Assembly: GCF_019598945.1 (NCBI RefSeq)
Contig: NZ_CP080598.1
Span: 5,022,001-5,086,000, forward strand
Direction: 5' to 3'
DNA: 64,000 bases
Source: Sphaerospermopsis torques-reginae ITEP-024
Lineage (GTDB): Bacteria; Cyanobacteriota; Cyanobacteriia; Cyanobacteriales; Nostocaceae
Positions 15,090-31,542 of the stretch are shown here, piece by piece (the stretch's first letter is position 1; each line of letters begins with the position of its first letter). Below the pieces are notes generated by a model. That model did not search any database and had not been told where the DNA came from. It saw only the letters and a list, made by a program, of their open reading frames with translations. Position numbers and translations under genes: made by a program.

Positions 15090-15182
15090 ATGAAAAATGT
15101 TGTTTTATTTACCAAGCATTCAGCACTGTTGATATTAACTTTATTTGTGTATCGTGAAAAATCTGGAAATAATATTTTCTAG
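15090..15182 (+). CDS. Possible 30-residue hydrophobic small protein
   Basis: An ATG at 15090 preceded by AAGAGGT opens a 30-codon frame (MKNVVLFTKHSALLILTLFV then YREKSGNNIF). It resembles a signal peptide or a single-helix membrane peptide, and may be a remnant of a truncated secreted protein. There is no homology I can recall, so this is a weak call based on the ribosome binding site and composition alone. Confidence 0.25.
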   Translation: MKNVVLFTKHSALLILTLFVYREKSGNNIF

Positions 15183-15339
15183 GTTTTATTGCTTAGTAAA
15201 AACAAATTGTTGCACTAAGTATTGACAATCCAAGAATTATGTAATAACAAAGTGGCATCGTCAATTAAAGGCGCTAGTGTTATCCCCCCTAAGAGACACA
15301 CTAACGCCAATCAATCAAATTCATACGGATAATATAATC

Positions 15340-15576
15340 ATGCCACAAAACACAGATGACAAAGATACCAAATCAAAAAATCCAGCAATTTCTTATAGAA
15401 ATCGGCTGAATAGTTGGGCTATAGCTCGCGTGGTTGCGAATCAAGAGCGTGTAATTATTGCCAGATTCCGTAGTCGTTCAGATGCAGATGGTTATATTCA
15501 GCACTTGCGTCAACTCATACCTGATGGTTCTTTCGAGATTTTCTTTGATTCTCAACGGGAAGCAGCGGCGATTTAA
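15340..15576 (+). CDS. Small conserved cyanobacterial protein (SPOR-like composition)
   Basis: A 78-residue protein starting MPQNTDDKDTKSKNP. The C-terminal half (WAIARVVANQERVIIARFRS then RSDADGYIQHLRQLIPDGSF) has the rhythm of a SPOR-like or ferredoxin-like alpha-beta fold, but I cannot assign a family. The ATG at 15340 was chosen over an upstream in-frame alternative at 15277, because the preceding residues look non-coding. It is convergent with the nucleoside phosphorylase-like gene. Confidence 0.65.
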   Translation: MPQNTDDKDTKSKNPAISYRNRLNSWAIARVVANQERVIIARFRSRSDADGYIQHLRQLIPDGSFEIFFDSQREAAAI

Positions 15577-15635
15577 GCTTTGAGTTATCATATCAATTGA
15601 TAATTGACAATTGACAATTGACAATTTTTTCATTC

Positions 15636-15720
15636 AAGGTTTAAAACTTCCGTTTACAGGGTAAAAAAGCCAAAAATTCAGCTTTTTCAATCTTCTCCTT
15701 TCAACCAGAGAGGTAATTGT
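15636..15720. repeat. Dispersed ~85-bp two-hairpin repeat, copy 2
   Basis: Second copy of the element at 1044-1128, in the same orientation, again preceded by GACAATT repeats and ending GAGAGGTAATTGT. It retains the AAAAGCC / AGCTTTTT stem; the first hairpin is eroded. It lies between convergent genes. Confidence 0.6.
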
Positions 15721-15792
15721 CAATTGTTCATTGTCAATTGTCCATGATTGAAGTGATTCTCAGATTCCCGACTTCGCAAAGAAATCGGGGAT

Positions 15793-16498
15793 CTATATCC
15801 GAGTTGAGGAACTGGCTAAACAGTAAGCTAGTGTTTCTAATATTTTGAGTGCTTGTAAGGAACTACGAATCAAGCGGGTAGCAGCTAGGGGTTGACGGAT
15901 GAATGTTAAGGCCAGGGGTAGAGGTTGGAGTGAACCATCGGTGCTAATGGCTGTTGTTAGGTTAGGTATATCATGGAGAGTATCATCACTAACGACTCGT
16001 AATATTGCGGTTGATAACCCTAGTGGCTGGAAAAATTCTAAGAATGGGAATCCTTCCATATCAACAACATCAGCGCCAGATTGTAGATGTAAATTTTGTT
16101 TTTCTGCTGTTAGGGATATGACGCGATCGCTCGTTAATCCCTTCACAAAACATACTTTATCCCCAAGTTGGTTATGTATCTCTGTGATCAAGGTGCGATC
16201 GCACTTTTTCAGATTTCTTTGATACATACAATCTCGATAGAGAACTATATCACCAACCTTGTAATGCTCATTTAAACTGCCACATAAACCCATCAGCAGC
16301 ACTCGTTGATTAAGTTGATTTAAATGTTGACAATTGTTTTCCAAAAACTGGTACAGTGATTTCATTCCCAGGGGTATTGCTATCACCTGTGGTTGCAAAC
16401 CTTTAACACGACTTAAACCACGACAAACGGCTTGGTGTTCTGCTCCTTGGGGAACTAAAATTGTGTTAATAATTGATGTTTTTTTTAATAGTTATCAT
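15793..16498 (-). CDS. Nucleoside phosphorylase/nucleosidase-like protein with A8-disrupted start
   Basis: The product belongs to the PNP/MTA-SAH nucleosidase superfamily: VLLMGLCGSLNEHYKVGDIV (phosphate/ribose pocket), GADVVDMEGFPFLEF (the VDMEg motif that binds ribose) and LRVVSDDT near the catalytic Asp. The conserved-looking reading frame runs upstream of the nearest TTG (16398) through ILVPQGAEHQAVCRGLSR, but the only ATG (16498) is in another frame and would join it only if the A8 tract (16479-16486) had one A fewer. So expression may depend on slippage, a rare start codon or TTG at 16398, or the gene may be broken. Confidence 0.65.
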
Positions 16499-16642
16499 TA
16501 GATATTTTTAATTTGACTGTAAAATATAAATTATACTCTACCGTAATATCAACTTTTTTCATCTTGTATATTGCTGTTTTTCTTATTGTACTACCCTTTG
16601 GAAATCCGCTTCGTGTCTACGTGCATTCGTGGTTAATTTAAT

Positions 16643-18382
16643 ATGTTTTTTAATTTTTTTCAAAATCCTCAATCAGTAAATTCTAATTTTCAAGTAATAC
16701 CTACTTGGTATGTAGCTTATGGAAAATTAGATGTTGTAGACGCTTTAAAAGCAGATGTCACCTGGCAAGATGAACAATTTGCTGTTATTTCCGCATCCGA
16801 AAATTTTGCCATGAGTCTTAACGAAAGATTTGTATTAGTTGGTGATATATGGTTAAGTAATCGTTTAGAACTCCTACAAAGAATAAATATTGATTCTCCC
16901 CAAAAAATCAGTAATCAACAAATAATTTTACAACTTTGGCAAAAGTATAATTTTCAATGTTTAACCCTATTATTAGGGATGTTCAACTTAGTAGTTTGGG
17001 ATCGAGAAAAGCAAGAATTATATTTAGTCAGAGATGCTATAGGTAGCCGAACTTTATATTATACAACTAAAGGTTTGACTCGCTGGATTGCTCCCAAATT
17101 AACCACCCTTGCACCTCATAGAAACAATGACTTAGATTTAATCGCACTGCGAGATTATTTATGTTGTGCATTTGTTCCAGGAGAAAGAACACTTTGGCAA
17201 AATGTGAAAGAAATTCGTCCTGGTACACTTATAGAAATGCCTTCAAATCAAGTTTATCATTATTGGCAACTGCAAGAAAAAATAATAGATGTTAATCAAC
17301 CTTTAGAATGGTATAGCGAGAAATTAAGTGATTTACTAGAACAAGTTATCAAAGAATATTTACCAGAAAATCAACCTTTGGGAGTATTTCTTTCTGGTGG
17401 TTTAGACTCTAGCAGTATTACCGCATTAGCAGCAAAATTACATAATGCACCAGTTCATACTTATTCCATTCATTTTGGTAATGAAACACCCAATGAATTA
17501 GAATTTTCTAGCTTAGTTGCAGAACATTGTCAAACACAACATCACATTTTAGAAATTACCTTTCGGGAAATGTGGGAACGTTTACCAGAAACAATGTTAT
17601 ATTTAGATGATCCTATCGGTGATCCTTTAACAGTACCAAATTTATTAATAGGTAAACTAGCGAGAGAAAATGTAGAGATTACATTAAATGGAGAAGGAGG
17701 AGATCCTTGTTTTGGAGGTCCAAAAAATCAACCAATGTTGATTAATAGTTTATATGGTACAATTAATAATCAAGATGCTTTAACAGCTTATTTAATATCT
17801 TTCCAAAAATGTGCTTTAGACTTACCACAACTATTAAAACCGGAAATTTGGCAAAGTGTAAAAAATGAATCTTCTGTATTTTACCATGATTTAAATGCCG
17901 ATGCTAATTATTTAAATAGATTAATGAAATTGAATATTAAATTTAAAGGAGCAGATCATATTCTAACCAAGGTAAATAACTTAACCCAAGCAGCAGGTTT
18001 ACAAGGTTTATCACCATTATTTGATCAGCGAGTAGTTGACTTGAGTATGCAAATTCCCCCAGAATATAAACTTTCAGGAGTCGAAGAAAAAGCAGTTTTG
18101 AAAAAAGCAGTCAGTGATATTTTACCAGATACAATTATTCAGCGTCCTAAAAGTGGAATGATGGTTCCTGTACAATTAGGATTTAGGAAATATTGGCAAA
18201 AACAAGCGCGGAAATTGTTGTTAAATAGAAATAGTGAAATTTGCGCTTATATTAATCAGGATATTTTACGGAATTGGTTAGAGTTTAAAGGTGATATTTG
18301 GGGGCGTTATGGTGTTAAACTATGGTTATTGGTTAGTTTGGAAATTTGGTTGCAGGTAAATAAATCAGTATTAAAGAAATAG
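16643..18382 (+). CDS. Asparagine-synthetase-like protein lacking the glutaminase cysteine (AsnB-like 1)
   Basis: The 579-residue protein has an N-terminal Ntn-type domain (residues 1-170) and a C-terminal ATP-pyrophosphatase domain with VFLSGGLDSSS (SGGLDS at 251-256) and NGEGGDPCFGG (350-358). True AsnB enzymes start Met-Cys and use Cys2 to release ammonia from glutamine; here the N-terminus is MFFNFFQNP, so the glutaminase is dead. Such proteins (beta-lactam synthetases, lasso peptide cyclases, other amidoligases) adenylate a carboxylate and couple it to an amine. Substrate unknown. The next gene starts four bases after its stop. A paralogue lies at 22297-24018. Confidence 0.88.
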   Translation: MFFNFFQNPQSVNSNFQVIPTWYVAYGKLDVVDALKADVTWQDEQFAVISASENFAMSLNERFVLVGDIWLSNRLELLQRINIDSPQKISNQQIILQLWQKYNFQCLTLLLGMFNLVVWDREKQELYLVRDAIGSRTLYYTTKGLTRWIAPKLTTLAPHRNNDLDLIALRDYLCCAFVPGERTLWQNVKEIRPGTLIEMPSNQVYHYWQLQEKIIDVNQPLEWYSEKLSDLLEQVIKEYLPENQPLGVFLSGGLDSSSITALAAKLHNAPVHTYSIHFGNETPNELEFSSLVAEHCQTQHHILEITFREMWERLPETMLYLDDPIGDPLTVPNLLIGKLARENVEITLNGEGGDPCFGGPKNQPMLINSLYGTINNQDALTAYLISFQKCALDLPQLLKPEIWQSVKNESSVFYHDLNADANYLNRLMKLNIKFKGADHILTKVNNLTQAAGLQGLSPLFDQRVVDLSMQIPPEYKLSGVEEKAVLKKAVSDILPDTIIQRPKSGMMVPVQLGFRKYWQKQARKLLLNRNSEICAYINQDILRNWLEFKGDIWGRYGVKLWLLVSLEIWLQVNKSVLKK

Positions 18383-18386
18383 TCAA

Positions 18387-18653
18387 ATGCTAAAAGAACT
18401 TCATTTAAGGTCTGTAGGACCATCTTCTCAATTTGATGTTGAATTTGCTGATAGACTGAATATCTTTACTGGTGATAATGGACTAGGTAAAAGCTTTTTA
18501 CTAGATGTTGCTTGGTGGGTACTTACCGGAAATTGGGTAGAACAACCAGCTTATCCGCAAAGAAATACAGAACAACCCCCAGAAATTATCTCCCAAATTG
18601 AAACTAAATATGGTTTAAAAGATTATCAAAGTGGTTTTAATTTTTCTGTTTGA
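18387..18653 (+). pseudogene. Truncated AAA/SMC-type ATPase (N-terminal fragment)
   Basis: The 88-residue fragment opens MLKELHLRSVGPSSQFDVEF and has the Walker A motif FTGDNGLGKSFLLDVAWW, as in RecF/SMC-like ATPases of about 400 residues. Everything after Walker A, including signature and Walker B, is gone. The frame ends in sequence that continues into the HNH-type gene in another frame, so a deletion appears to have fused the two. ATPase-HNH nuclease pairs of this kind recall the Septu (PtuA-PtuB) arrangement; that link is by analogy. Confidence 0.75.
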
Positions 18654-19197
18654 TGAAAAAGCAAGACTATCAGGTAATAATTGGTTAGCAAAAAATACAG
18701 ATCCTAAAAAAAGACCTATAGATTATTGGTCAAAATTCAAAAGTGATTTAGCTGGTGGTTTTAATAATCTTTGTGGTTATAGTGTCATGTATGAACCTGT
18801 AGAAACTGTAGAGCATTTTTTATCTTGTGAAAATCATCGTCATTTAGCTTATGAATGGAGTAATTACCGTTTTGCTTCTGGTTGGATTAATAGTAGTAAA
18901 GGTACTCTTGATAACCAAGTTCTTGATCCATTTGAAGTTGAGGATGACTGGTTTGAAATTTTGTTACCTTCACTCCAGTTAGTTATTACTGATAAAGTAC
19001 CACCTGAGAAACTAGAAAAAGCAGAATTTACTTTAAAAAGATTACGTTTGCAAAATGGCTCACAAGTGATGCGCCAGCGTCAAGTATGGTATAATTTATA
19101 TTGTGCTGGTAGTATTGACTTAGAAGGGTTAGAAAAAATGGCTCCTCTAATTGCTAGAGCAGTTAAAAAACAACAAGCAAATTCTGACAGAGAATAA
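18631..19197 (+). CDS. HNH-endonuclease-like protein, N-terminus altered by deletion
   Basis: This 188-residue protein contains a degenerate HNH-type block: NLCGYSVMYEPVETVEHFLS, then LAYEWSNYRFASGWINSSKG and VLDPFEVEDDWFEILLPS, with the H, N and K positions visible (EHF, SNYR, SSKG). The C-terminal half is helical (EKAEFTLKRLRLQNG, QVWYNLYCAGSIDLEGL). The true N-terminus has been replaced: translation would have to start inside the fused ATPase remnant (MVLIFLFDEKARL). It could still be nearly full length and active. It probably once formed an ATPase-nuclease defence pair. Confidence 0.6.
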   Translation: MVLIFLFDEKARLSGNNWLAKNTDPKKRPIDYWSKFKSDLAGGFNNLCGYSVMYEPVETVEHFLSCENHRHLAYEWSNYRFASGWINSSKGTLDNQVLDPFEVEDDWFEILLPSLQLVITDKVPPEKLEKAEFTLKRLRLQNGSQVMRQRQVWYNLYCAGSIDLEGLEKMAPLIARAVKKQQANSDRE

Positions 19198-19249: not shown

Positions 19250-19711
19250 ATGATACAAAACATACCAAAACATGATATTTTATATGAAACAGATTTTCTT
19301 GCTTGGTGCGAAAGAACAGTTACTCAACTCAAAGCAAAAGATGTAGAAAATCTTGATTTTGAACATTTAATAGAGGAAATTGAAAGTTTGGGAAAAAGCG
19401 AAAGACGGGAATTAAGAAATAGATTATTAGTTTTGATAGCACACATTCTCAAACGGATGTATGTTAACAGTTCTGAAAACTTCAATGGATGGGAAGTAAC
19501 TATTATAGAACAACGAAAACAAATTAAAGTTTTATTGAAAGAATCTCCCAGCTTAAAACCTTATCTAGCACAAATATTTACAGAAGTTTATGCTGATGCT
19601 TTAGATATTGTTTCCGTTGATTATAAACAAACAGATTTTCCTGATACATGGCCATTTGATTTTGGTACAGATTTACTTTTATCTGCAAAATATTGGGAGC
19701 ATAATCTGTAA
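19250..19711 (+). CDS. DUF29 family protein
   Basis: A 153-residue protein of the DUF29 family, very common in cyanobacteria. The family signature is complete: LYETDFLAWCERTVTQLKAK at the start, LIEEIESLGKSERRELRNRL in the middle and DTWPFDFGTDLLL near the end. No function is established. It is probably a separate gene from the broken ATPase-HNH pair, 52 bp downstream on the same strand, and has a decent ribosome binding site (GGAGCAATAG) ahead of ATG. Confidence 0.9.
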   Translation: MIQNIPKHDILYETDFLAWCERTVTQLKAKDVENLDFEHLIEEIESLGKSERRELRNRLLVLIAHILKRMYVNSSENFNGWEVTIIEQRKQIKVLLKESPSLKPYLAQIFTEVYADALDIVSVDYKQTDFPDTWPFDFGTDLLLSAKYWEHNL

Positions 19712-19727
19712 CTTGCATTGTAAATAT

Positions 19728-21041
19728 TTAACCAAAACTTTCCACCATATAAATATCATTCCCAGAATCACCAATTAATATCATACTACTATCATCATTT
19801 GTTAAATTAAAACTTCCAGAAATACCATTTCTGAGAACTTTAATTAAAATTTGTGGGTAAAAAGATTCTAATTCTACAAAATTACCTGCATCTAACCAAG
19901 CTAACTCTTCCGCAGTTAAAATTTGACGAATTTCTAACGGTAATTCTTTTGATTTATTAGCTAAAGAAGTTGCATTTTGGAAAAACATTCCCCGCTCATT
20001 TGCCAGAATTTGACGAGGTAATAAACCTACATCAATAATTGTGACATCATTATTTAAAAACCAAGTTTCACTATTACGAAGATGATGGACTAAACTAACA
20101 CCTTTAGGACTACAATCATGGAAAGCAAAAACTTGTAAATTTGGGTTTCTGCGTAACATTTCCATTGTAGTATCAAAAATACTTTGGGGATAACCATTAA
20201 CGCTGAGAATTGCACAGTTATTTTCAAAATGGAAATTATTAGCAATTAACAATTGTGCGATATTAGCACTATCACAAACTATCAAACGATCAAAACTGTA
20301 AGCTGTAACTTCAGGATTTATAGATATTGAATCAACTTCGGAAATGATTTGTTGTACAGAAGGTAATAGTTTATCAATTGTGCCATTAATTTCCTGCCAT
20401 TTTGTTAACCAACCTTCCACAGAGGATAGATAAACTCTCAAATTTTTAATACTTGTGGCGGGATCAATTTTTTGTTGACTGAGAAATAATGCTGAACCTC
20501 CTGAAATTATTACAGCAATCATAATTGGTAAAGATTTTATTACAAAACTAATCAAACTTCCTGCTAATAAAATCAAAATACCAACAATTTTTAAAGATTT
20601 TGCACTAGCTTTACGTTCTGTATATGAGTTGAATGGAGATTTAGTTTGTTGATATAAACCAATAATTGTGATTACCTGAAAAATTAAATTACAAACCAGG
20701 AAAGAATTAGGTAAAAATCCACTGGTAACTCCTCCAAAAACACCCGTTACGCAAATGTTCGATAATATATATGAACCGATATTTCCTCCGACTGAAGATG
20801 CTGTAAGTCGGATGCGATTTTTGCGATTTTCCAGAAAATATAACAGTTGTTTGGCTGTAAAGTATAAAGTATTGTTAGCAGAAATATCAGCCAATATTTT
20901 AGCAAACATGGGATCTGTAATTTTTAAAGTTCCCATTGTTGTAGGTTCAAAAACAAAAGGATGATTACATTGTTTGCATCTTCCATAATTTGCTGTTCTG
21001 TCTTTTAAGTTGTTGTCAGTTCCGCAGTTAATACATTTCAT
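19728..21041 (-). CDS. Zinc-ribbon membrane protein with a C-terminal alpha/beta domain, unknown function
   Basis: The 437-residue protein starts with a zinc ribbon (Cys3, Cys6, Cys22, Cys25), then a short conserved block (LKITDPMFAKILADISANNT), several hydrophobic helices (about residues 82-120 and 145-190) and a soluble C-terminal domain. That domain has alternating strands and helices: LIVCDSANIAQLL, NCAILSVNGYPQSIFDTTM and LQVFAFHDCSPKGVSLVHHL. The DCSPKG motif vaguely recalls a TOPRIM or nucleotide-binding loop, but I cannot name the family. It is convergent with DUF29. Confidence 0.7.
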   Translation of the reverse strand: MKCINCGTDNNLKDRTANYGRCKQCNHPFVFEPTTMGTLKITDPMFAKILADISANNTLYFTAKQLLYFLENRKNRIRLTASSVGGNIGSYILSNICVTGVFGGVTSGFLPNSFLVCNLIFQVITIIGLYQQTKSPFNSYTERKASAKSLKIVGILILLAGSLISFVIKSLPIMIAVIISGGSALFLSQQKIDPATSIKNLRVYLSSVEGWLTKWQEINGTIDKLLPSVQQIISEVDSISINPEVTAYSFDRLIVCDSANIAQLLIANNFHFENNCAILSVNGYPQSIFDTTMEMLRRNPNLQVFAFHDCSPKGVSLVHHLRNSETWFLNNDVTIIDVGLLPRQILANERGMFFQNATSLANKSKELPLEIRQILTAEELAWLDAGNFVELESFYPQILIKVLRNGISGSFNLTNDDSSMILIGDSGNDIYMVESFG

Positions 21042-21097: not shown

Positions 21098-22330
21098 CTA
21101 AACTATTTGATTATTCAGTAAAACACTGTAATCTTCTCGTTTTCTAATTAACCGATGAGTACCATTTTCTATTAAAACTTCCGCAGGTTTAGGACGATGT
21201 AAAAAATGGGAAGACATCGCATAACCATAAGCACCCACATCTAAAATAGCGATCATATCACCAATTTTTAAAGCGGGAAGTTGACAATTTTTACCTAAAT
21301 AATCCCGTGAATAAGTGGTATTTCCACAAACATCCGTGATATAATTTGTGATATTCTTTTCATAAGTTTGATTTTTCCAACTTACAATTTCTCGAAAACC
21401 TCCATGTACCGCAGGAACAGAAAGATTAGCAACCGTAGAATCTACACCTAAAACTTGTTTATTACCTTGCCATTTCACAGATACAACCTGAGCTAACAAA
21501 GTTCCACAACCCGCAATAGCAGAGCGTCCTGGTTCAATAATCAAATTAATATTTTTCCCTAAATTGCCAATTTTTCTACTTAACTCATCTCCAAAAGTTT
21601 CCCAATCAAAAGCAACACCATCATGATGATAAGGAAAACCAAAACCTCCACCAAAATCTAAATATTGCCAATCTGGTAAATTTTCTGCTATGGATATTAC
21701 CTCATCAATAACATTAGTAAAAGCAGAAGTTGCATTAGTTCCCGTACCCCGATAAAAATGTAAACCCGAAATCTTTAAACCTGCATTACTCGCAATAGCA
21801 ACTGCCTCATCAAAATCTGCTATACTAACACCAATACGACTATCTTCAGAAATATTTAAACGTAAACCAATATTTAACTTTGCGTCTTTGCTCCTTTGCG
21901 TCTTTGCGCGAAACAAAAAAATCTCACACAACAAACGCAACTGAGAAATACTATCCAAATTTAAAGTATTCACACCCCAATTTAAAACTTGTTCCATTTC
22001 CTCCCGACTTAAATTACTACCACTATAGACAATTTCCGAAGGTGCAAAACCAGCATTTAAACCCAAATAAATATCACCTGGTGTATTAGCATGAAGTCCC
22101 CAACCAGCATTTTTAAATATCTTCAATAACGCAATATTTCCATTAGTGACACTGGCAAAATAAAACCGAGTTTGAGGATAATGGAAAGAGTTAGTAATAT
22201 GGGAAATAGTTTGATTTAAAATATCACCATCATAAACATATAAAGGAGAACCGTAAATATTTAATAATTCTTCAGCAAGTTCTTGAGAAAATGGAGTTAA
22301 TAATTTTGCAGTTTCTTGTAATGTTTCCAT
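21098..22330 (-). CDS. LysA/ornithine decarboxylase-fold protein lacking the expected PLP lysine
   Basis: The 410-residue protein matches fold-type III PLP decarboxylases: GSPLYVYDGDIL (27-38), YSGSNLSREEM, LNLDSISQL, DFGGGFGFPYH (225-235), IEPGRSA (265-271) and GAYGYAMSSHF (367-377). In LysA the PLP Schiff-base lysine sits in YAVKANSN; here the aligned segment is FASVTNGN, with Val61 where Lys is expected. CESGD of the active site is VCGNTTYSRD. ATG at 22330 is preferred, overlapping the AsnB-like gene by 34 bp, so translation is probably coupled. Residues 137-151 come from a CTTTGCGT repeat. It may be a non-decarboxylating or inactive homologue. Confidence 0.82.
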   Translation of the reverse strand: METLQETAKLLTPFSQELAEELLNIYGSPLYVYDGDILNQTISHITNSFHYPQTRFYFASVTNGNIALLKIFKNAGWGLHANTPGDIYLGLNAGFAPSEIVYSGSNLSREEMEQVLNWGVNTLNLDSISQLRLLCEIFLFRAKTQRSKDAKLNIGLRLNISEDSRIGVSIADFDEAVAIASNAGLKISGLHFYRGTGTNATSAFTNVIDEVISIAENLPDWQYLDFGGGFGFPYHHDGVAFDWETFGDELSRKIGNLGKNINLIIEPGRSAIAGCGTLLAQVVSVKWQGNKQVLGVDSTVANLSVPAVHGGFREIVSWKNQTYEKNITNYITDVCGNTTYSRDYLGKNCQLPALKIGDMIAILDVGAYGYAMSSHFLHRPKPAEVLIENGTHRLIRKREDYSVLLNNQIV

Positions 22331-24018
22331 AAACCACGAGGTAATAAAAACGGATGCTTCCAAGACTTTGATCCTAGTTTTACACCAAAAACGTGAAAAT
22401 ACCAAAGTTCCCACATAATTAGTAACCAAAGTATCTCACCTATGCGTCGTCCTTGAATATGTCCTCCCAGTTCTCCGGTAATAATTTTTGTTGCTATATC
22501 AGGGTAAAAAATATTTTCCGCTTCTAGTATACCCGGATTTAACCAATTACCAAGATCATGCCAAAAATTATTTACACACCAAGAAGTTAAGGGAACACCC
22601 ATCCCCCGCTTTTGTCTCCAGACTATTTCCGATGGTAGTAAATTTTCTACAGCGCGTTTCAAGATATACTTTTCACAAGCACCCTGTAAACAGAGTTCAC
22701 CAGATAGCTGAAAAGTCCATTCTGCTAAATTTAAATCACAAAAAGGCGATCGCACATTTAACCCATGCACAAAACTTAACGCAGTTGCACGGGGATGAAT
22801 ATTTTGCGCTCCCTTTAACATCAAACTTGCACGACGCAGACGATGTAACAACGAAGGACAAAAACGACTATCTAACCCATCTAACAGCCATTCCTGGGCA
22901 TTTAAACCCCGAATCTGAGCATAAATATCCGGTTGATACACCCTAGATTCATAACCCCAGAGACGGTGAAAAGTTCTTAAATATTGTTGAATAAAACCCT
23001 CATTTTTATGCGGATGTTCACTTTGATAAATACCCGCAGCAATTAAAGGTTTATTAGTCCAACCTGCAAATAATTGATCACCACCTTCACCATTAAAAAT
23101 GACCTTAGTTTCTTGAGAAGCGACTTTATTTAAAAGATATAAAGGAACAGTAACACCATCACCAAAAGGTAAATCTAAAGCTTTAACAGTAGGAATAATT
23201 GCATTTTTAATATTTTTCGGACTTGCATCAACCTTAACAATAGGAATATTTAAAAAATCTGCCACCTGTTCCGCATAAGGATATTCAGAAATACCAAACT
23301 CACCAAAATCTAAACTATAAGCACGAACTTTAACCCCTGCATTTACCAACAAAGCAGCAACAATGGAAGAATCTAAACCCCCAGATAAAAACACACCTAC
23401 AGGATCATCTTTTAAATCGTTAATTTGTCTTTCCACCGCATTTTTTAATAAACCTTGTAATTGAGAAACTGCGGTATTTTCATCTGTAATTTGTTCTGGA
23501 GATTCAACCCATTGATAAAATTTTCTCACTTCGTAATTTTCAATATTATCAATATTAAAAACTACCTCAGTTCCCGCACTCACAGAAAAAACACCCTCAA
23601 CAGGAGTCAAAGGAGTAGGAACATAAGAAAAACAGGAATAACCATATAAACCAGAAATATTAACCTCTGGTTTTTCCATTATTTCCAAAAGTAAATCTAA
23701 CCGAGAACCAAACCAAACAGTATTATTTTCAGAATTATTTTTACAACTCCAAAATAAAGGAAATCTCCCAAAAACATCCCTACCCAAAATCAACCTATCA
23801 TCTTCTATTTTCACCCAAACATCAGCATCATCAAAACCCGAAGCAGAAAGAGCAGCAATAGTATTTCCTTCTATCTCCCGTGCATCATCACACCCCACAT
23901 AAACAACCTCAAAAACAAACCCTTCTCCCTTCCCTCCTCTCTCTGCGTCTCTGCGTCTCTGCGTGATAAAATCTTCCTTCTTCTCACCCCAATAACCGAT
24001 AAAATGATAGGATAACAT
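22297..24018 (-). CDS. Asparagine-synthetase-like protein lacking the glutaminase cysteine (AsnB-like 2)
   Basis: A 573-residue paralogue of the protein at 16643-18382. The synthetase half has VGVFLSGGLDSSIV (SGGLDS at 212-217), NGEGGDQLFAGW and VHGLNVRSPFCDLNLAEW. The N-terminus is MLSYHFIGYW, without the catalytic Cys2, so ammonia release from glutamine is not possible. Residues 17-29 (FITQRRRDAERGG) are encoded by a CTCTGCGTCT repeat, an insertion in the coding frame. It starts two bases after the membrane protein gene and overlaps the LysA-like gene, which fixes the three as one operon. It probably makes an amide bond in an unknown metabolite or peptide. Confidence 0.87.
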   Translation of the reverse strand: MLSYHFIGYWGEKKEDFITQRRRDAERGGKGEGFVFEVVYVGCDDAREIEGNTIAALSASGFDDADVWVKIEDDRLILGRDVFGRFPLFWSCKNNSENNTVWFGSRLDLLLEIMEKPEVNISGLYGYSCFSYVPTPLTPVEGVFSVSAGTEVVFNIDNIENYEVRKFYQWVESPEQITDENTAVSQLQGLLKNAVERQINDLKDDPVGVFLSGGLDSSIVAALLVNAGVKVRAYSLDFGEFGISEYPYAEQVADFLNIPIVKVDASPKNIKNAIIPTVKALDLPFGDGVTVPLYLLNKVASQETKVIFNGEGGDQLFAGWTNKPLIAAGIYQSEHPHKNEGFIQQYLRTFHRLWGYESRVYQPDIYAQIRGLNAQEWLLDGLDSRFCPSLLHRLRRASLMLKGAQNIHPRATALSFVHGLNVRSPFCDLNLAEWTFQLSGELCLQGACEKYILKRAVENLLPSEIVWRQKRGMGVPLTSWCVNNFWHDLGNWLNPGILEAENIFYPDIATKIITGELGGHIQGRRIGEILWLLIMWELWYFHVFGVKLGSKSWKHPFLLPRGLWKHYKKLQNY

Positions 24019-24020
24019 AA

Positions 24021-24638
24021 CTATTGCACAACAAAAATTTCTTCACTAATTTTTCTCCCATCCAGCAACATTTCCACCTTCCAATTACCCACAGGTGCAG
24101 CAGAATTGATAGGATATTTACAGCGAGTATTCCAAATAGAAGTAGTTACATCTTTAGTTTCATAACTATTTTGCTTCACAATTTTTCCACTAGGATCTAT
24201 CCAATTACAACTAAGAGATAATTTTTTACCTATCGGTGCATCTTTCAAAGTCACACGATAAAAAACATCACCATTAGCTTGACGAGAAACAGTATTTATT
24301 TGTTGTTCATTAGCTAAAGTAATTTTATCTTGCTGTGCAGAAACATTAGCTAATAAAGAAGCATTTTTTTGATTTAAAAATACCACACCACCAATAGTTA
24401 TAATAAGCGCCCCAACCACCCCAAAAGCTATCAACTTATTACGACGTTGTTGCACCTCCAAAGCTTGACGACGACGCAACTGAATCAAAGCTTCATCTAA
24501 CAACTCTGGAGGTAAATTTAACTCTTGTAAAATTTGCTGAACTTGTTGTTGGTCAAATTCAGCTTCTTGACGTAATTGTAAACCTTGAACTTCAGCAATA
24601 ATTTGGTTTAATTGTTCTTGAGTTAATCGCTGTTCCAT
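24021..24638 (-). CDS. Single-helix membrane protein, first gene of the AsnB-like/LysA-like operon
   Basis: The 205-residue protein has a glutamine-rich helical N-terminus (residues 1-65: EQRLTQEQLNQIIAEVQGLQ and so on), one transmembrane helix (about residues 68-87, LIAFGVVGALIITIGGVVFL), a short coiled region and an outer beta-rich domain with two cysteines (LSLSCNWIDPSGKIV, NTRCKYPI). I know no function. It starts 190 bp downstream of the last cpcG gene on the same strand and is followed after two bases by AsnB-like 2, so it leads this operon. It could anchor or sense for the enzymes behind it. Confidence 0.75.
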   Translation of the reverse strand: MEQRLTQEQLNQIIAEVQGLQLRQEAEFDQQQVQQILQELNLPPELLDEALIQLRRRQALEVQQRRNKLIAFGVVGALIITIGGVVFLNQKNASLLANVSAQQDKITLANEQQINTVSRQANGDVFYRVTLKDAPIGKKLSLSCNWIDPSGKIVKQNSYETKDVTTSIWNTRCKYPINSAAPVGNWKVEMLLDGRKISEEIFVVQ

Positions 24639-24828: not shown

Positions 24829-25590
24829 TTAGCGTTTACCACGATAAGGAACTTCATTCAAGTAATCAATGTCAAAAGAAGAGATTCTTTGAGCATAGTT
24901 ACCCTTACCAGACAGAGAAGCGGCCATATCTGCAAACTTGCCAGGATCGCCTTCTCTGAGACGTTTTGTTTTCGCCTTTGCAGTGTAGAAGTTTTCCAAC
25001 ACAAAGCGCCAGTCGGTTCTGACTGTACCTGCTGTTTCTTGGAAGTCCACACCGTAACGAGGAGTAACCAAGTTATAGGGACGACCTTCCATGCGTTTAC
25101 GTTGGTAAGGTACGGTGTTATCACCAAAGTTTTGGTTATATTCTTCGCTGTCTACCAAAGCATCAACAAAGCCATCAAAACCCTTAGTACCAATAACAAT
25201 AGACCAAGCAATTTCTTCTTCTTTGTTGTAAGCAGAACGACCCAAAAGGCGCTTGAGGGTGATATCTACTAAACGATAGTTGTTGTTAACAGAAACAACT
25301 AAACGATAGAAAGCTTCGGATTTAGCTAAACCACGAATGAAGTCTTTAACAGACAAAGAACCATTTTTCAGTTGAGATTCTAAAGTAATTTGGCGGTTAA
25401 ACTTCAAAATTTCATGTTCGCTGAAAACTTGGCGATAGGAAGCCCAAATGATGCTTTGAATGTCAGTGTAAGAACTAACATCTTCTAAACGGTAGATATA
25501 AGGAGTATCTTCGTTTTTATCAGCAACACCGAAACTGCTAACGCGGTGGTTTTGGGTAGATGGTTTGTATTGAAGTAATGGCAGTGCCAT
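24829..25590 (-). CDS. cpcG: Phycobilisome rod-core linker CpcG, third copy (CpcG4-like)
   Basis: CpcG linkers attach phycocyanin rods to the allophycocyanin core on the cytosolic face of the thylakoid. The 253-residue protein starts [17 protein letters not shown], the CpcG N-terminal signature, and holds one PBS linker domain (about residues 20-180) with LIDVA-type blocks: [39 protein letters not shown] and [20 protein letters not shown]. Its length equals that I recall for Anabaena CpcG4, so the CpcG3-type gene may be the one missing here. A 409-bp gap upstream may hold its own promoter. Confidence 0.92.
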
Positions 25591-25999
25591 GCTGCGTCTT
25601 TCCTCTTGTGAATAAATTCGTTTCGTTTCGTTTAAAAACAGAATTGGGTTTGTTTAAAAACAGAATTAGATTTGATCACTGCTATATAAAACCTAGACAA
25701 AGCTAGACTTTACTTTCTACTTCAACGGGAGCATGGGAGCGGTTATCCCTCAGTAGACTTGCACGCTGTAGCCCAACGCGACTTTCTCAGGTTAAGATTT
25801 GGAAACAGACTATCACTATCAATGCTTGGTTTTCGCGTCGGTAATAGTCTGATTCAATACTTGATATCTGAGGATTATATATCAAGTTGGCATTTTTCTG
25901 AGCTAACTTATGTCCATTTTTGTCAACATAAGTATATTATTGTCTATAAAATGGTCAACTTAGGACAAGCTCATTAGGTTACATACCTAATTAAGAGAT
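25591..25999. other. Gene-free spacer between two cpcG genes
   Basis: This 409-bp gap is longer than the other cpc spacers. It carries two copies of an AAACAGAATT(A/G)G word, an inverted pair AACTTATGTCC / CAACATAAGT near 25905-25935, and a repeated ATAGTCTGATT / ACAGACTATC inverted pair around 25805-25855. It contains no cpcG3-like remnant that I can see. It may contain a promoter for the last cpcG gene. Confidence 0.45.
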
Positions 26000-26743
26000 T
26001 TAACGAACTGGGAAACTAGCACTAGGACTGATAGACACAGGAACACCTGCGGGTACTGTTTCCCTAGTAGTATCGGGAATTGCAATGTTAGCTGTGCTAA
26101 CTGGTGTGTAAGTAACAATCCTGATATTAACAGCAGCAGCCATTTTCATGAAATCGCTTATACTACCGGGTTTGTAGCGTTCAGCTTCTAGCTTATCCCG
26201 CCAATAGTCAGCATAGCGGGGTGTTACCAAATTAAAGGGTCTGTCTTTATAGCGTCGGCGTTGGTAAGGAACAATATTTTCCCCAAAGCAGCTTTGATAC
26301 TCTTGAGAATCTACCAAAGCATCAACAAAACCATCCCAGCCGCTAGTTGCAATTTTGATAGACCAAGCGATTTCTTCATCTTTGTTGTAAGGCGCACGAC
26401 CTAACAACCGCTTGAGTCCAATTTCTACTAAACGATAATTAGAATTGGTTTTAATTACCAAATCTTGGAAAGCTTCAGATTTAGCCAAACCCCGGATAAA
26501 ATCACGGACAGTAATAGCTTTATTTTTTACCTGAGATTCTAAATTACCTTGGCGGTAGAATTTGAGGATGACGTGTTCGCTAAAAAGCTGGCGATAAGCA
26601 GCCCAAATTAATTCTTCAACTTCACCACCAAAAGCATAATCTTCAATGCGGTAAACTCTGGGGGTGTCTTCGTTGGGTACTTCGTAACCAGCAACCCGTT
26701 GATTTTGTGAACTGGGTTTATATTCTAGTAAAGGTATTGCCAT
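26000..26743 (-). CDS. cpcG: Phycobilisome rod-core linker CpcG, second copy (CpcG2-like)
   Basis: A 247-residue rod-core linker starting [20 protein letters not shown], with one PBS linker domain ([79 protein letters not shown]). The C-terminal tail after residue 190 ([20 protein letters not shown]) is specific to this copy and probably decides which core face it binds. Tandem repeats fill the 154 bp between it and the first cpcG. Confidence 0.93.
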
Positions 26744-26758
26744 ATTTTATGTTGTTTG

Positions 26759-26890
26759 TAAGTTGTAAGTTGTAAGTTGTAATTGGTAATTGGTAATTGG
26801 TAATTGGTAATTGGTAAACACTCTTTTCTGTCACCTGTCACCTGTCACCTGTCACCTGTCACCTGTCACTTTTCACCTGTCACCTGTCAC
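26759..26890. repeat. Tandem repeats in the cpcG1-cpcG2 spacer
   Basis: The spacer consists of four GTAAGTT units, five GGTAATT units and about eight TCACCTG(TCACC) units. The TCACCTG run is complementary to the GTGACAG run at 28505-28555, so the two could pair within one long cpc transcript. Confidence 0.8.
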
Positions 26891-26897
26891 CTATTCC

Positions 26898-27737
26898 CTA
26901 ATTTTTCGAGAGTGCAGGGATATAGCTGTAAGGTAGAGAAACTGCTACGGGTTTAATGGTTACTTCTTCTGTAGTTACATCCCGTGAAGTATCGGGAATT
27001 TCCAAAGTTTTGATTTGAGAAGTCACAGCAGCAATTGTTCTTTGGTAGTTGCGTTCGGGAGTAATGATGTTTCCAGCCATTGCCAAGAAGTTAGCTGGAA
27101 TAGCTTTCCGGATATCTTCAGTGGTGAGAGTTCCCGAAGTGCGGATGCTGTAGAAGGAACGATAACCAAAAGAACGCATACTTTGGGTATCGCGCCAGTT
27201 GGCATTGTAACGGGGGTTGACTAAGTTAAAAGGACGTGAACCAAAGCGACGACGCTGATAAGGTACAATATCATCGCCAAAGTTTTCTAGGTACTCGTCA
27301 GAGTCTAACAACGCATCAATAAAGCCATGTACGCCTTTGGTCGCAATAACAATAGACCAAGCAATTTCTTCATCTTTGTTGTAAGCTGCCCGTCCCACAA
27401 ACCGCTTGAGGATAATATCAACTAAGCGATAGTTAGAATTAACCTCTGCTACTTGAGAGCGGAAAACATCTGATTTACCCAAACCCCGGATAAAATCACG
27501 AACAGTAATAGCCCGGTTTCGCAGTTGAGATTCTAAAAATTTTTGACGATAACTGCTTAAAATCAGATGTTCGCTAAAAATCTGCCGATATCCTGCCCAA
27601 ATAATCGCATCAACATCTTGATCTGATGTGGCGTAGTTCAGTTTATAAACGGTTGGGGTGTCTTCGTTGGGAACTTCGTAACCTTCGACACGCTGATTTT
27701 GTGAAGAAGGAGAATATTCTAAAAGTGGTATTGACAT
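26898..27737 (-). CDS. cpcG1: Phycobilisome rod-core linker CpcG1
   Basis: A 279-residue rod-core linker with start [20 protein letters not shown] and one PBS linker domain ([59 protein letters not shown]). It has the longest C-terminal extension of the three copies (residues 190-279, including YRSFYSIRTSGTLTTEDIRK), the expected form of CpcG1, the main rod-core linker. It follows cpcF directly in the operon order cpcB-A-C-D-E-F-G. Confidence 0.94.
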   Translation of the reverse strand: MSIPLLEYSPSSQNQRVEGYEVPNEDTPTVYKLNYATSDQDVDAIIWAGYRQIFSEHLILSSYRQKFLESQLRNRAITVRDFIRGLGKSDVFRSQVAEVNSNYRLVDIILKRFVGRAAYNKDEEIAWSIVIATKGVHGFIDALLDSDEYLENFGDDIVPYQRRRFGSRPFNLVNPRYNANWRDTQSMRSFGYRSFYSIRTSGTLTTEDIRKAIPANFLAMAGNIITPERNYQRTIAAVTSQIKTLEIPDTSRDVTTEEVTIKPVAVSLPYSYIPALSKN

Positions 27738-27876
27738 CTTGACTTTTACCTTGTTTTATGGTATTGGGTTTAAGCTAAACAAGCTCAGGACTGATGCAAA
27801 ACTTCTCAAAAACCTCTTTCCTTTGTGTACTTTGCGTACTTTGCGGTTAATTATTCCGTAGCTTGTGCGTAACGCC

Positions 27877-28491
27877 TCAAGTGGTTAAACCCAAACTACT
27901 AGAAGCTAATTGAATGCGAGCGCACACAGCTTGTTCACTATCATTAGCCAGCATTTCTTGGAAGAAAGTCAAGATGGTTTCTCTTATCTCCGCTATTTTT
28001 GCCAAAGCCTGTAAACCAACAATGGCAGCATAGCGAATTGACCAGTCTGTGTCTTGACAAATCAACAGCAGTGTTTCTAATGCGCGATTGATAGCTGTTT
28101 GACGTTCAGCCATGCCTAATTGAGACCAGTTTAAATTTCCTAATCCTTTAGCAGCAGCACGGCGCACACTAGGTGCGAAGTCTGTAGCAGCAGTTGAGAT
28201 TAACACATCTAAAGCACGGGGATCAGCGATCGCTGCTAAGGTGCGAATCGAATAAGCCCGTGCGCCATAGTTATAATCATCAATTTGTTCTAGCAACTGA
28301 GGTACTGCCATTTCTCCCAGTTCTGTGAGTCCTGCTACTGCCACCACCGCTGCTGCTGGGTTATTGTAACCAAAAACAGCAATTAAGGTAGAAATGGCCT
28401 TTGGATCTTTAGCTGCTGCTAGGTTCTTCACTGCTGTCACCATTTGCGCTGATGTTTCCGCTTGCTTAACAGCATTAATTAGTTCATCCAT
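27877..28491 (-). CDS. cpcF: Phycocyanin alpha subunit phycocyanobilin lyase, subunit F
   Basis: CpcF pairs with CpcE to attach (and detach) phycocyanobilin at Cys84 of the phycocyanin alpha subunit. The 204-residue protein consists of HEAT-like repeats (DPKAISTLIAVFGYNNPAAA, ADPRALDVLISTAATDFAPS, DTDWSIRYAAIVGLQALAKI), as in all E/F-type lyases. It lies downstream of cpcE in the usual order, separated by a 131-bp spacer full of GGTGACAG and CCAATTAC repeats. Confidence 0.95.
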   Translation of the reverse strand: MDELINAVKQAETSAQMVTAVKNLAAAKDPKAISTLIAVFGYNNPAAAVVAVAGLTELGEMAVPQLLEQIDDYNYGARAYSIRTLAAIADPRALDVLISTAATDFAPSVRRAAAKGLGNLNWSQLGMAERQTAINRALETLLLICQDTDWSIRYAAIVGLQALAKIAEIRETILTFFQEMLANDSEQAVCARIQLASSSLGLTT

Positions 28492-28504
28492 GTCTCAGTG
28501 GTCA

Positions 28505-28620
28505 ATAGTTGGAAGGTGACAGTTGACAGGTGACAGGTGATAGGTGACAGGTGACAGTAATAAATTTACCAATTACCCATTACCAATTACCTATTACCAA
28601 TTACCCATTACCAATCACCA
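28505..28620. repeat. Tandem repeats in the cpcE-cpcF spacer
   Basis: About six GGTGACA units followed by nine CCATTAC/CCAATTAC units. The same words in the opposite orientation occur in two other cpc spacers (26835-26890 and 30776-30800). Confidence 0.8.
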
Positions 28621-28622
28621 AC

Positions 28623-29447
28623 TTATAAAAGTGAATCCATCAGGGTCATGACTCGGAGTGCTTGATCAGAAACAGAATCTGATTTATCAACAAGTTGATG
28701 TTCTAACAATCCTTTGAGTGCCATGAGTTTGAAACTATTTTCTGCCTGAGCTTGGGCGATCGCCTCAGCAGCAGCCATATAACCAATCGCTCCCAAATCC
28801 CCCAAAATAGAGCGCCGCAATTTCAGATCACTGTTTTGCATCATTTTCACCAAAAATTCCCCATACTGAGAATCTTGGGTGAGTTGATACATAGCCCTAG
28901 CTGCGGAGCATTGCACCCTTGTGACTGGATGCTCTAAAAAAGGCTGAATTAGGGAAATAGCCTCAGTTGCACCAATAGCTCCCAAGGCTTCTAAAACTGC
29001 CTGATATGGTTGGGTCAGATGGGGACGGCCTGGTACTTGCACGGCCTTGGCAACACCCCCATCTAGCATTTTGATCAGTGCTGGTATTGCAGTTTCAGCG
29101 TTAAGCATTGCTAAAGATTGGGCTGCTGCTTCTCGCACATAAAAATCTGAGCATTCCAAACACTGAATCAAGCCCGGTATAGCTTTAGGACTGCCCAATT
29201 TTCCCAATGCTCTGGCTGCATTCCGTCGGAGTGGATAACCTCCTAGTTCTGTTTTGTCAGCTTCATCCTCTAACGCTGTAATGAGTGCGTCTACGGCTTC
29301 TGGCTGACTGACTCGAAATTTACCCAACCACCAAGCGGCATAATAGCGGAGACTTAAATCTGATGATTGCAGGTTAGCGATGGCTTGCTCTGGTGTCAAC
29401 TGCGCCCCATTTTCGGCAGAATGTTCTGTCGTACTGGGTTCTATCAT
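28623..29447 (-). CDS. cpcE: Phycocyanin alpha subunit phycocyanobilin lyase, subunit E
   Basis: CpcE is the larger partner of the CpcE/CpcF lyase that loads phycocyanobilin on alpha-phycocyanin. The 274-residue protein is built from HEAT-like repeats (LRYYAAWWLGKFRVSQPEAV, GSPKAIPGLIQCLECSDFYV, GGVAKAVQVPGRPHLTQPYQ, NSDLKLRRSILGDLGAIGYM), and the YYAAWWLGK block is a CpcE signature. Its start is 10 bp after the cpcD stop, so it is co-transcribed with the rod genes. Confidence 0.96.
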   Translation of the reverse strand: MIEPSTTEHSAENGAQLTPEQAIANLQSSDLSLRYYAAWWLGKFRVSQPEAVDALITALEDEADKTELGGYPLRRNAARALGKLGSPKAIPGLIQCLECSDFYVREAAAQSLAMLNAETAIPALIKMLDGGVAKAVQVPGRPHLTQPYQAVLEALGAIGATEAISLIQPFLEHPVTRVQCSAARAMYQLTQDSQYGEFLVKMMQNSDLKLRRSILGDLGAIGYMAAAEAIAQAQAENSFKLMALKGLLEHQLVDKSDSVSDQALRVMTLMDSLL

Positions 29448-29457
29448 TACCAGTGCT

Positions 29458-29697
29458 TTATCCTGCTACAGTCAAAGGTTCAATTTTGACAATTCTGCCA
29501 CCTAAGCGGCTAATCCGCTGCATTTCTTCAGTCATCCGGCTGTAGGGTACGGTAATAAATACGCTACCGCTACGACGAATGCTGAAATTATTTTTGTCGG
29601 TTTCTTGGTTTTGCTTTAAGCCTACAACTTCATAACGAAATACACGGCTTGCAGATGAAGAAACGCTACTAGCACCAAGTGTAGTTTGACCGAACAT
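29458..29697 (-). CDS. cpcD: Phycobilisome rod-capping linker CpcD
   Basis: The 79-residue CpcD caps the distal end of phycocyanin rods and limits their length. It is a single CpcD-type domain: VFRYEVVGLKQNQETDKNNF, SIRRSGSVFITVPYSRMTEE and MQRISRLGGRIVKIEPL. It begins 50 bp after cpcC, with a GGAGATTTAGAAG ribosome binding region. Confidence 0.96.
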   Translation of the reverse strand: MFGQTTLGASSVSSSASRVFRYEVVGLKQNQETDKNNFSIRRSGSVFITVPYSRMTEEMQRISRLGGRIVKIEPLTVAG

Positions 29698-29747
29698 TAC
29701 TTCTAAATCTCCTCTTGATGGGTTATACCAACAAACAGCACAATATC

Positions 29748-30608
29748 TTACGTAGATGTAATACTGACTATTTTTCCGCCTTGTTTGTGAATTTGCTGAA
29801 TCTTGTCAGAAAGACGCTCGTAAGGTACTATAAATGCTGTGCTGCTGCGGCGCACGCTGGGGTATCCTGGATTGCGTATGCCCGCTACTTCAATTCGGTA
29901 AACGCGATCCGATTTCCCTACAGCATTACCTAAGTTTTGCTTAGGTGCATTATCCGCAGATGGACGGAATGCCCAATTATCATTACTTCCCGATGGACCG
30001 ACAACGGAGGAAGCTTTGTTACTAGCTAATTCCCGTGCCAAACGTGATTTGCTACCTTCTACCTGAGCAGTATCACTATTGGCATATCCACGGTACAAAC
30101 GGAACATCCGGGTAAAACCAGCAGATGTTTGTCCTGGTTGAAAATCAAACCCGCGATAATAAGGAACAACATTGTCGCCAAAGTTGTTTTGATACTCCAT
30201 CGAATCTATATAAGAGTCGATTTCTGCATCGTAACCCTCGTTAATATATAAATCTAAGTGGTATGTCACCTCAGACTCATCCAGAGGAGCGCGACCCAAC
30301 AAATGTTTATAGTTGAGTTCAATTAACCGCGTTTGGAAACTGTTATAGAAGAATTTGGATTTGTAGAGTTCTGACTTAGCAACGCTCCGCACAAACTCAC
30401 GCACGGTCAAATTACCATCCCTCAACAGTGACTCTGCACTCTTCAAGCGATCCGATGCCAGAATATAGTCGTTTCCTAAAACTTGGCGATAAACGGCTTT
30501 GATCACCATTTCCACTTCTTCGCGGCTGGCATTGGGGCGCAGTTCAACTCGACGTGAATCACTAAAAGGCTCAGTTCCCAGCCTAGACGCTGCTGCTGTA
30601 ATTGCCAT
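29748..30608 (-). CDS. cpcC: Phycocyanin rod linker CpcC
   Basis: CpcC joins phycocyanin hexamers within a rod. The ATG at 30608 ([20 protein letters not shown]) was chosen over a start 12 codons upstream because AAGGGGAA lies just before it and the length becomes 286 residues, the size I recall for Nostocales CpcC. It has an N-terminal PBS linker domain (about residues 15-180: [60 protein letters not shown]) and a C-terminal CpcD-like domain ([20 protein letters not shown]). Expression relative to cpcBA may be reduced by the structured spacer before it. Confidence 0.96.
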
Positions 30609-30775
30609 TGTTTTTCCCCTTTGATTCGCAATTTTGATTAGCAATACTGCTCTTTCTAACCAATTGCTGTTTGCATCAAATTGGTTATTTGTTAGCTATA
30701 GCCACAGATAAGGTAATCAGGACATTAATTAACTGGTGATACAAACTTTAGTGATCAGAAAACTATTATCGCTGT

Positions 30776-30800
30776 CACCTGTCACCTGTCACCTGTCACC
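30776..30800. repeat. TCACCTG tandem repeats ahead of cpcC
   Basis: Four copies of TGTCACC in the spacer between cpcA and cpcC, the same word as in the other cpc spacers. Confidence 0.7.
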
Positions 30801-30817
30801 TCACATACATAAAACTA

Positions 30818-30941
30818 TGCCCGGAGCGAGATCCAACTGCTAGGTGATTCAGTCCAGTCGAGTGAAAAGAGATTCCCCACGAAAACTGATTTAATCCCAA
30901 AAGGATAAACTTCATCCAGCACTTGTACCCCTCTCCGGGCA
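30818..30941 (-). promoter_or_regulatory. Structured cpcA-cpcC intergenic region (candidate attenuator/processing site)
   Basis: On the transcribed strand TGCCCGGAG (30941-30933), shortly after the cpcA stop, can pair with CTCCGGGCA (30826-30818), nine base pairs enclosing about 106 bases. A small AGCTA/TAGCT hairpin overlaps the cpcA end. cpcBA transcripts in many cyanobacteria are much more abundant than the linker part of the operon, so this is a reasonable candidate for the termination or RNA processing site. There is no long T-run, so a classical terminator is not obvious. Confidence 0.45.
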
Positions 30942-30950
30942 AGAAGCTAT

Positions 30951-31439: not shown

Positions 31440-31542
31440 GGTCTAATTTCTCCTTGATTGGTTTCGTATCTTGTTGGAATAGCTCGATTTTTAGCTGTGG
31501 ACTACTTGTACTTGTTTGTACTTGTTGATTAAACAACGTTGA

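Follow-up and report, generated by a model that had tools for sequence, protein, structure and literature searches.

A co-inherited five-gene set of cyanobacteria with Cys-less AsnB-type ligases and a Phe-Gly-ended membrane protein: a candidate system for protein-terminus modification or carriage

What is the role of a tightly packed group of genes encoding a membrane protein, an AsnB-like amide ligase and a LysA-like protein in the genome of Sphaerospermopsis torques-reginae ITEP-024, when catalytic residues of two of the enzyme families concerned have been replaced? This question was addressed for a window of 64,000 nt (NZ_CP080598.1, positions 5,022,001-5,086,000), i.e. the whole stretch of DNA analysed, whose own numbering is used below. 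The three genes belong to a larger, conserved set, and our leading, though tentative, proposal is that this set is an accessory, horizontally mobile system for modification of a protein terminus or for carriage on it, with TOPRIM437 and ASN2 as the core and ASN2 acting on the Phe-Gly-ended (FG) tail of its partner. The features concerned are as follows:

24021-24638, minus strand: TM205, 205 aa; membrane protein, predicted single-pass, whose N-terminal part is helical and which carries an Ig-like beta-sandwich
22297-24018, minus strand: ASN1, 573 aa; ATP-dependent amide ligase of the AsnB type, in which the glutaminase domain is vestigial and lacks its Cys
21098-22330, minus strand: LYS, 410 aa, with its ATG at 22330; LysA-fold protein
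19728-21041, minus strand: TOPRIM437; zinc ribbon and four predicted membrane helices, then a degenerate Toprim domain of the Topo VI type and the tail
19731-19799, minus strand: codons of the TOPRIM437 tail (residues 415-437), disordered, acidic, almost lysine-free, ending ESFG
16643-18382, plus strand: ASN2; Cys-less AsnB-type ligase, sister of ASN1 and core partner of TOPRIM437

The open reading frames (ORFs) of the three minus-strand genes named in the original prediction were reproduced together with their packing, that is a 2-bp spacing between TM205 and ASN1 (24019-24020) and a 34-bp overlap of ASN1 and LYS (22297-22330); the second AsnB-like gene, which had been placed 4 kb away, is ASN2, at a distance of 3.9 kb. 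Using LYS, 80 cyanobacterial loci were retrieved, and the window proteins were mapped onto them. The prevailing order is TM205 > ASN1 > LYS > TOPRIM437, to which most loci conform; TM205 is present in 71 of the 80, immediately 5' of ASN1, TOPRIM437 in 77, and ASN2 often comes next after TOPRIM437, usually on the opposite strand. Since most of the fetched loci share this order, the arrangement is far beyond chance. Apart from the five genes, nothing encoded in the window region is found repeatedly near the cluster in these loci. The unit is a conserved five-gene system (TM205, ASN1, LYS, TOPRIM437 and ASN2) and not one of three genes: the undescribed operon suggested by the original prediction is conserved and no name was found for it, but its membership had been drawn too small, TOPRIM437 having been overlooked and ASN2 mentioned as a nearby gene outside the set.

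Two genome surveys showed that the set is inherited together. Among 291 genomes from the phylum, LYS was found in 25, TOPRIM437 in 28 and ASN2 in 25, in nearly identical sets of genomes. Among 324 genomes of the order, TOPRIM437 occurs in 93, ASN2 in 92 and LYS in 90; TOPRIM437 shares 88 genomes with ASN2 and 89 with LYS, and all three stand together in 86 (these genomes are related and not independent, and Fisher values for the co-occurrence overstate the evidence). In five genomes (G223, G091, G117, G166 and G457) ASN2 lies 0.15-5 Mb from TOPRIM437 and has been kept, and therefore proximity alone does not explain the association.

Loci from deep lineages of the phylum indicate which genes form the core. 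The order is LYS-TOPRIM-ASN2 in one of them (L085) and LYS-ASN1-TOPRIM-ASN2 in another (L086), while three further genomes of a deep lineage (L129, L130 and L131) show, in the stretches read, only TOPRIM and ASN2, with overlapping ends. Because these minimal pairs stand without LYS and ASN1, TOPRIM437 and ASN2 are taken to be the core, and ASN1, LYS and TM205 to be additions; these three would have been added in cyanobacteria, ASN1 as a paralogous ligase and TM205 as a protein that crosses the membrane once and has an Ig-like domain on the outside. The distribution is patchy inside families, and in Gloeothece verrucosa PCC 7822 the whole cluster is located on a plasmid that is conjugative; the system therefore probably moves horizontally. 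Viral contigs gave no match to the TOPRIM437 or ASN2 profiles. The Gloeothece plasmid is linear, and a protelomerase-family protein is encoded two genes from the cluster (L168:13720-15081).

The chemistry left to the ligases can be read from their motifs. ASN1 matches the Pfam family Asn_synthase (E 5.9e-58), its glutaminase domain is barely detectable (GATase_7, 19.1 bits against a cut-off of 25) and its N terminus is without Cys2, the glutaminase nucleophile, in line with what had been noticed at first sight. No aligned ASN1 or ASN2 member shown has Cys2; the 12 reference proteins of the family taken from relatives do. The possibility that ASN1 is an ordinary AsnB with a wrongly placed start was rejected, as its frame is open for just 8 codons further upstream, which leaves no room, and as it falls in a separate clade. 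In a maximum-likelihood tree, ASN1 and ASN2 form sister clades (each 100/99, joint 100/100), distinct both from those members of the family that bear Cys2 and from a further, Cys-less group within it. Neither of the two outcomes that the original prediction had named as refuting it was observed. The simplest reading of these sequences is a single loss of the glutaminase Cys followed by duplication into ASN1 and ASN2, which are the only full-length AsnB-family genes of the genome. Both enzymes keep the PP-loop SGGLDSS and the catalytic Lys motif (RQKRGM in ASN1, RPKSGM in ASN2), present in all ASN2 proteins shown and in all ASN1 proteins shown except one truncated fusion; the ASN2 motifs GGDPCFGGPKN and RPKSGM are invariant. 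Neither protein reaches the NCBIfam cut-off for AsnB (TIGR01536, 267.1 bits; ASN1 183.4, ASN2 231.6) or for lasso cyclases (NF033535, 525 bits; ASN1 51.8, ASN2 175.7), and beta-lactam synthetases were among the weaker AsnB-fold matches of both in a PDB search (1jgt and 1q15 matched). Judging from these residues, ASN1 and ASN2 probably still adenylate a substrate at the expense of ATP; the acid pocket would have been rebuilt, and an amine would be the nucleophile in place of glutamine-derived ammonia. The truncated fusion (L087:9603-11459) is a single ORF joining the start of ASN1 to the end of LYS, with the catalytic Lys region of ASN1 lost; it looks like a deletion scar, and its genome is also without ASN2.

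The partner of ASN2 begins with a zinc ribbon, which is followed by four predicted membrane helices, a Toprim domain, a variable linker and the FG-ending tail. The Pfam family PF21180 was matched by 33 of 34 TOPRIM437 members (E up to 0.1). In the AF2 model (pLDDT 83.8, and below 50 at residues 415-431, which are disordered) the nearest solved fold of the predicted Toprim domain is Topo VI A (Foldseek E 3e-4), and its modelled residues ~230-410 compare with 1d3y (VIA) at Z 11.7 and a root-mean-square deviation of 4.3 over 176 aligned residues. The acidic metal residues are not conserved: at the sites assigned by sequence resemblance to Topo VI A, the DxD motif reads HDCS, HNAS, HSAT etc. and the Glu is mostly Cys (Cys256). 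The protein is thus like Topo VI A/Spo11 in its modelled fold and unlike them in these residues and in the added membrane helices and Zn ribbon.

By contrast with the linker, which varies in length and sequence, the end of the TOPRIM437 tail is fixed. It reads (S/D/N)FG-COOH, the FG end being found in 94 of 97 distinct tails, with the remaining 3 from gapped or damaged copies; in all complete members F and G are invariant at the extreme C terminus and nothing ever follows them. The last 25 residues of the tails consist of 16% Asp, 16% Ser, 14% Gly and 0.1% Lys. Among 8945 distinct ORFs from all loci, acidic FG tails are almost exclusive to the TOPRIM437 family, which includes a 106-aa paralogue (L013) with little beyond the N-terminal Zn-ribbon region and the tail. 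A small Zn ribbon and an acidic C-terminal tail, ending EDWGE, also make up the amino-group carrier protein LysW; the likeness, drawn from this general description of LysW, lies in the plan of the protein, notably that of the 106-aa paralogue, whereas the tails here end in FG and the ligase is of the AsnB type and not an ATP-grasp enzyme. Tandem TOPRIM437 copies occur in three loci (L072, L073 and L081); some are broken, and each intact copy has its own FG end.

A tail of this kind, encoded next to relatives of lasso cyclases, could be the core peptide of a route resembling those of ribosomally synthesized and post-translationally modified peptides, cyclised by ASN1/ASN2 via Asp or Glu side chains, as lasso cyclases do, and later released. 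Lasso cyclases are AsnB-family proteins without glutaminase function, ASN2 does score with their model (175.7 bits, below the cut-off of 525), and genes for the tail are multi-copy in several loci, the short FG-tailed paralogue being a further form. The leader, however, would be a 400-residue membrane protein, the five have no other recurrent neighbour from the window region, and ASN1 and ASN2 branch separately from the Cys-less reference proteins of cyanobacteria, whose substrate loop differs; we regard this route as highly improbable.

The tail can be separated from the Toprim protein, as seen outside Cyanobacteriota, where the spread of the system is represented by one Streptomyces plasmid. 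This plasmid encodes an ASN2 relative (40% identity, with GGDPVFGGPKN and RPKSGM), preceded upstream by three Toprim-like ORFs that have no tail. Between these and ASN2, directly upstream of the latter, lies a gene for a protein of 179 aa that does not match Toprim; it has a Lys-free C terminus rich in Gly, Ser and Asp, with SDDDFG at its end. Since an unrelated protein next to ASN2 carries it, the FG tail is, in this one genome, a separable module that has stayed beside ASN2. The flanks of the Streptomyces cluster (L167:8785-9504 and 15181-16608) encode a cupin protein (by Pfam) and an apparent aldehyde dehydrogenase (by reading).

On the simplest account, the FG tail is what ASN2 acts on or through. 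In the mechanism that we propose, ASN2 would spend ATP on adenylating one of the carboxylates in the disordered acidic tail, in the simplest case that of the terminal glycine, and would pass the activated carboxylate on to an amine, glutamine being no longer available as a source of ammonia. The proposal draws on the co-inheritance of TOPRIM437 and ASN2, also over long distances, on the minimal pairs, on the fixed FG end of a nearly Lys-free tail, on the presence of such a tail beside ASN2 in Streptomyces and its scarcity elsewhere, and on the PP-loop and catalytic Lys kept by both ligases; that the tail is the substrate and is adenylated, which carboxylate and amine take part, and what LYS does are deduced from these observations. 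There are precedents for both halves of such a pairing. The asparagine synthetase (AS)-like enzymes PesC, TsrC and ScdTA act on C-terminal carboxylates of peptides, amidating or nitrilating them, and a Glu-Tyr dyad (E....Y in DELFGGY) recognises the carboxylate in AS-like enzymes (PMC13060819). Our system is like PesC (of the nitrilobacillins), TsrC and ScdTA in the AsnB fold, the PP-loop and the catalytic Lys, and in the genetic linkage to a (poly)peptide with a conserved C terminus behind a variable stretch (PMC13060819). It is unlike them in that ASN1 and ASN2 are without Cys2 and the dyad, in that a membrane Toprim protein of 437 aa takes the place of a short precursor, and in the addition of a sister ligase and a LysA-fold protein. 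With Cys2 and the dyad lost, the system is not a member of this enzyme group by the tests made; by analogy, it may work like it. Cap9 of type IV CBASS, a PP-loop enzyme, conjugates to the terminal glycine of its partner protein, and QatC was proposed to act on QatB in a Cap9-like manner (PMC13279940). A PP-loop ATPase with a partner that has a disordered tail and a conserved terminal glycine is common to these systems and ours (PMC13279940), but theirs is an N-terminal glycine whose amine is the acceptor, served by a QueC-family enzyme, while here the glycine is C-terminal and the ligase AsnB-type.

Several points speak against ASN2 modifying the tail. The Glu-Tyr dyad is replaced by GGDQLFAGWTNKP in ASN1 (Q...W) and by GGDPCFGGPKNQP in ASN2 (P...P), and because the dyad of the known AS-like C-terminal enzymes has been lost, the acid may be bound differently from the way it is in them. 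Two intact, stand-alone ASN2 genes (L133:8986-10728 and L134:8917-10632) lie in genomes without TOPRIM437 or LYS (G079 and G108), where they are either relics or have a second role. The Streptomyces case is a single genome, modification of the tail is deduced from comparison, and invariant C-terminal residues can also be docking signals. The last of these points leads to the strongest rival, namely that the FG tail serves for docking or recognition and anchors TOPRIM437 in a pocket of ASN2 or of another partner, the ligases acting on some other acid and amine while tethered to the membrane protein. Short invariant C-terminal motifs behind disordered linkers are commonly of this nature, and docking accounts both for the tail on an unrelated Streptomyces protein and for the lost carboxylate dyad. 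The invariance up to the final glycine, with nothing ever beyond it, is stricter than most docking motifs need, and the near absence of lysine from the tail also counts against docking, which we consider somewhat unlikely.

In which capacity LYS would serve such a ligase is suggested by what its fold has kept and lost. It matches Pfam Orn_Arg_deC_N (1.6e-24) and remains below the NCBIfam cut-off for LysA (TIGR01048; 250.2 against 297.9 bits); its best solved relative in a profile search is LysA of Aquifex (2p3e, E 4e-69). In the profile alignment to 2p3e, the site of the Schiff-base Lys is V61 (FASVTN in LYS versus YAVKAN in Aquifex LysA), Tyr193 stands at the site of the His that stacks on pyridoxal 5'-phosphate (PLP), Thr339-Tyr340 at the Cys-Glu site and Arg342 where LysA has Gly. 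Val61 is invariant across 31 aligned LYS relatives and hence no sequencing accident, and together with Tyr193, Thr339 and Arg342 it is invariant in homologues down to 41% identity. Likewise invariant are the GGG loop (GGGfG; G227-G229), EPGR (E266-R269) and Tyr368, which hold the PLP phosphate and ring nitrogen in the LysA fold. The kept glycine loop and EPGR and the missing PLP lysine, all three read correctly from the single sequence, are thus traits of the family. Another lysine does not take over, the sole invariant one (K286) being in the beta domain and aligned with a Lys of Aquifex LysA; nor is LYS the LysA of the cell, a true, lysine-bearing LysA being encoded elsewhere in the genome. 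LYS appears to be a pseudoenzyme for which classical decarboxylation is very unlikely, and it may bind a phosphate ligand, perhaps PLP, without a Schiff base. The LysA-fold enzyme BtrK, named for its carrier-bound substrate, was among the profile matches (7ru7, 2j66); LYS is like LysA and BtrK in the fold, GGG loop, EPGR and C-terminal Tyr, and unlike them in the replaced Schiff-base Lys, stacking His and Cys-Glu and in the presence of a separate LysA in the cell. Within the proposed mechanism LYS would bind, present or sense an amine-bearing ligand, with the pocket for the PLP phosphate kept and the catalytic residues gone. Its fuller form, in which the glutaminase-less ligases activate the terminal glycine of FG-tailed TOPRIM437 and join it to an amine-bearing partner on the remodelled LysA fold, would constitute a new class of conjugation or carrier system and is possible but doubtful. 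Short tandem repeats with an 8-bp unit lie in frame inside ASN1 (23940-23964) and LYS (21878-21908), and these stretches differ in length among relatives.

The kept ligand pocket of LYS would also suit a small-molecule pathway, much as originally suggested, whose product is an amide, lactam or peptide made or remodelled by the ligases and LYS; TOPRIM437 would then be its membrane sensor or scaffold. Cys-less relatives of AsnB do make lactams (beta-lactam synthetase and carbapenam synthetase, matched here by 1jgt and 1q15), and the ASN2-only genomes fit as well. Such a pathway is weakened by the minimal system, which is without LYS and ASN1; moreover, LYS has no equivalents of the Lys, His and Cys used in catalysis, the loci share no recurrent gene for tailoring or export, and the FG tail is left unexplained. 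A free small product is also made less likely by the conserved partner of the ligase being a protein with a conserved C-terminal tail, and by the recurrence of no other gene of the window region. The suggestion keeps its place among the readings, as an unlikely one.

TM205, in which a transmembrane helix and an outer beta domain had been recognised from the start, is predicted to have a long helix (residues 45-97) with a hydrophobic stretch, followed by an Ig-like beta-sandwich modelled with confidence. Two cysteines are invariant in its alignment, and a Foldseek search with the AF2 model returned generic Ig-like sandwiches only.

The view that no named pathway has this set was borne out within the libraries searched: neither NCBIfam nor PADLOC supplied a name for the system, and literature searches for the gene combination, with subscription journals outside their scope, found nothing. 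Against the anti-phage defence models of PADLOC (2023 library) ASN1 gave a weak QueC match (1.7e-05) and TM205, LYS, ASN2 and TOPRIM437 gave none. A five-gene set without a name or known function in these libraries has its core in ~28% of the sampled genomes of the order. It occurs on a conjugative plasmid, and parts of it can be followed to a deep cyanobacterial lineage and to Streptomyces; in it, three enzyme families with altered catalytic residues accompany a protein that always ends in Phe-Gly. Should the tail be the substrate, the few enzymes known to tag or load protein ends would be joined by those of the AsnB type.

The remaining ORFs of the region were considered separately. Those between TOPRIM437 and ASN2 were rejected as system members, as they are a Septu remnant without recurrence: a truncated PtuA (88 aa, PADLOC E 2.5e-32) overlaps PtuB (PDLC00348, E 3e-68) at 18387-19197 on the plus strand, and this looks like an inserted, broken defence system. 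A DUF29 protein (19250-19711, plus strand; Pfam E 6.6e-44) lies beside it. On the other side of ASN2, a cyanophycin-synthetase-like ATP-grasp protein (13948-14946, minus strand) and an HpnG-like phosphorylase (15793-16485, minus strand) were likewise rejected, this pair recurring only in Sphaerospermopsis NIES-73 (L006). Upstream of TM205, starting at a distance of 191 bp, phycobilisome linker, lyase and phycobiliprotein genes occupy 24829-32064 on the minus strand (ORFs read by eye).

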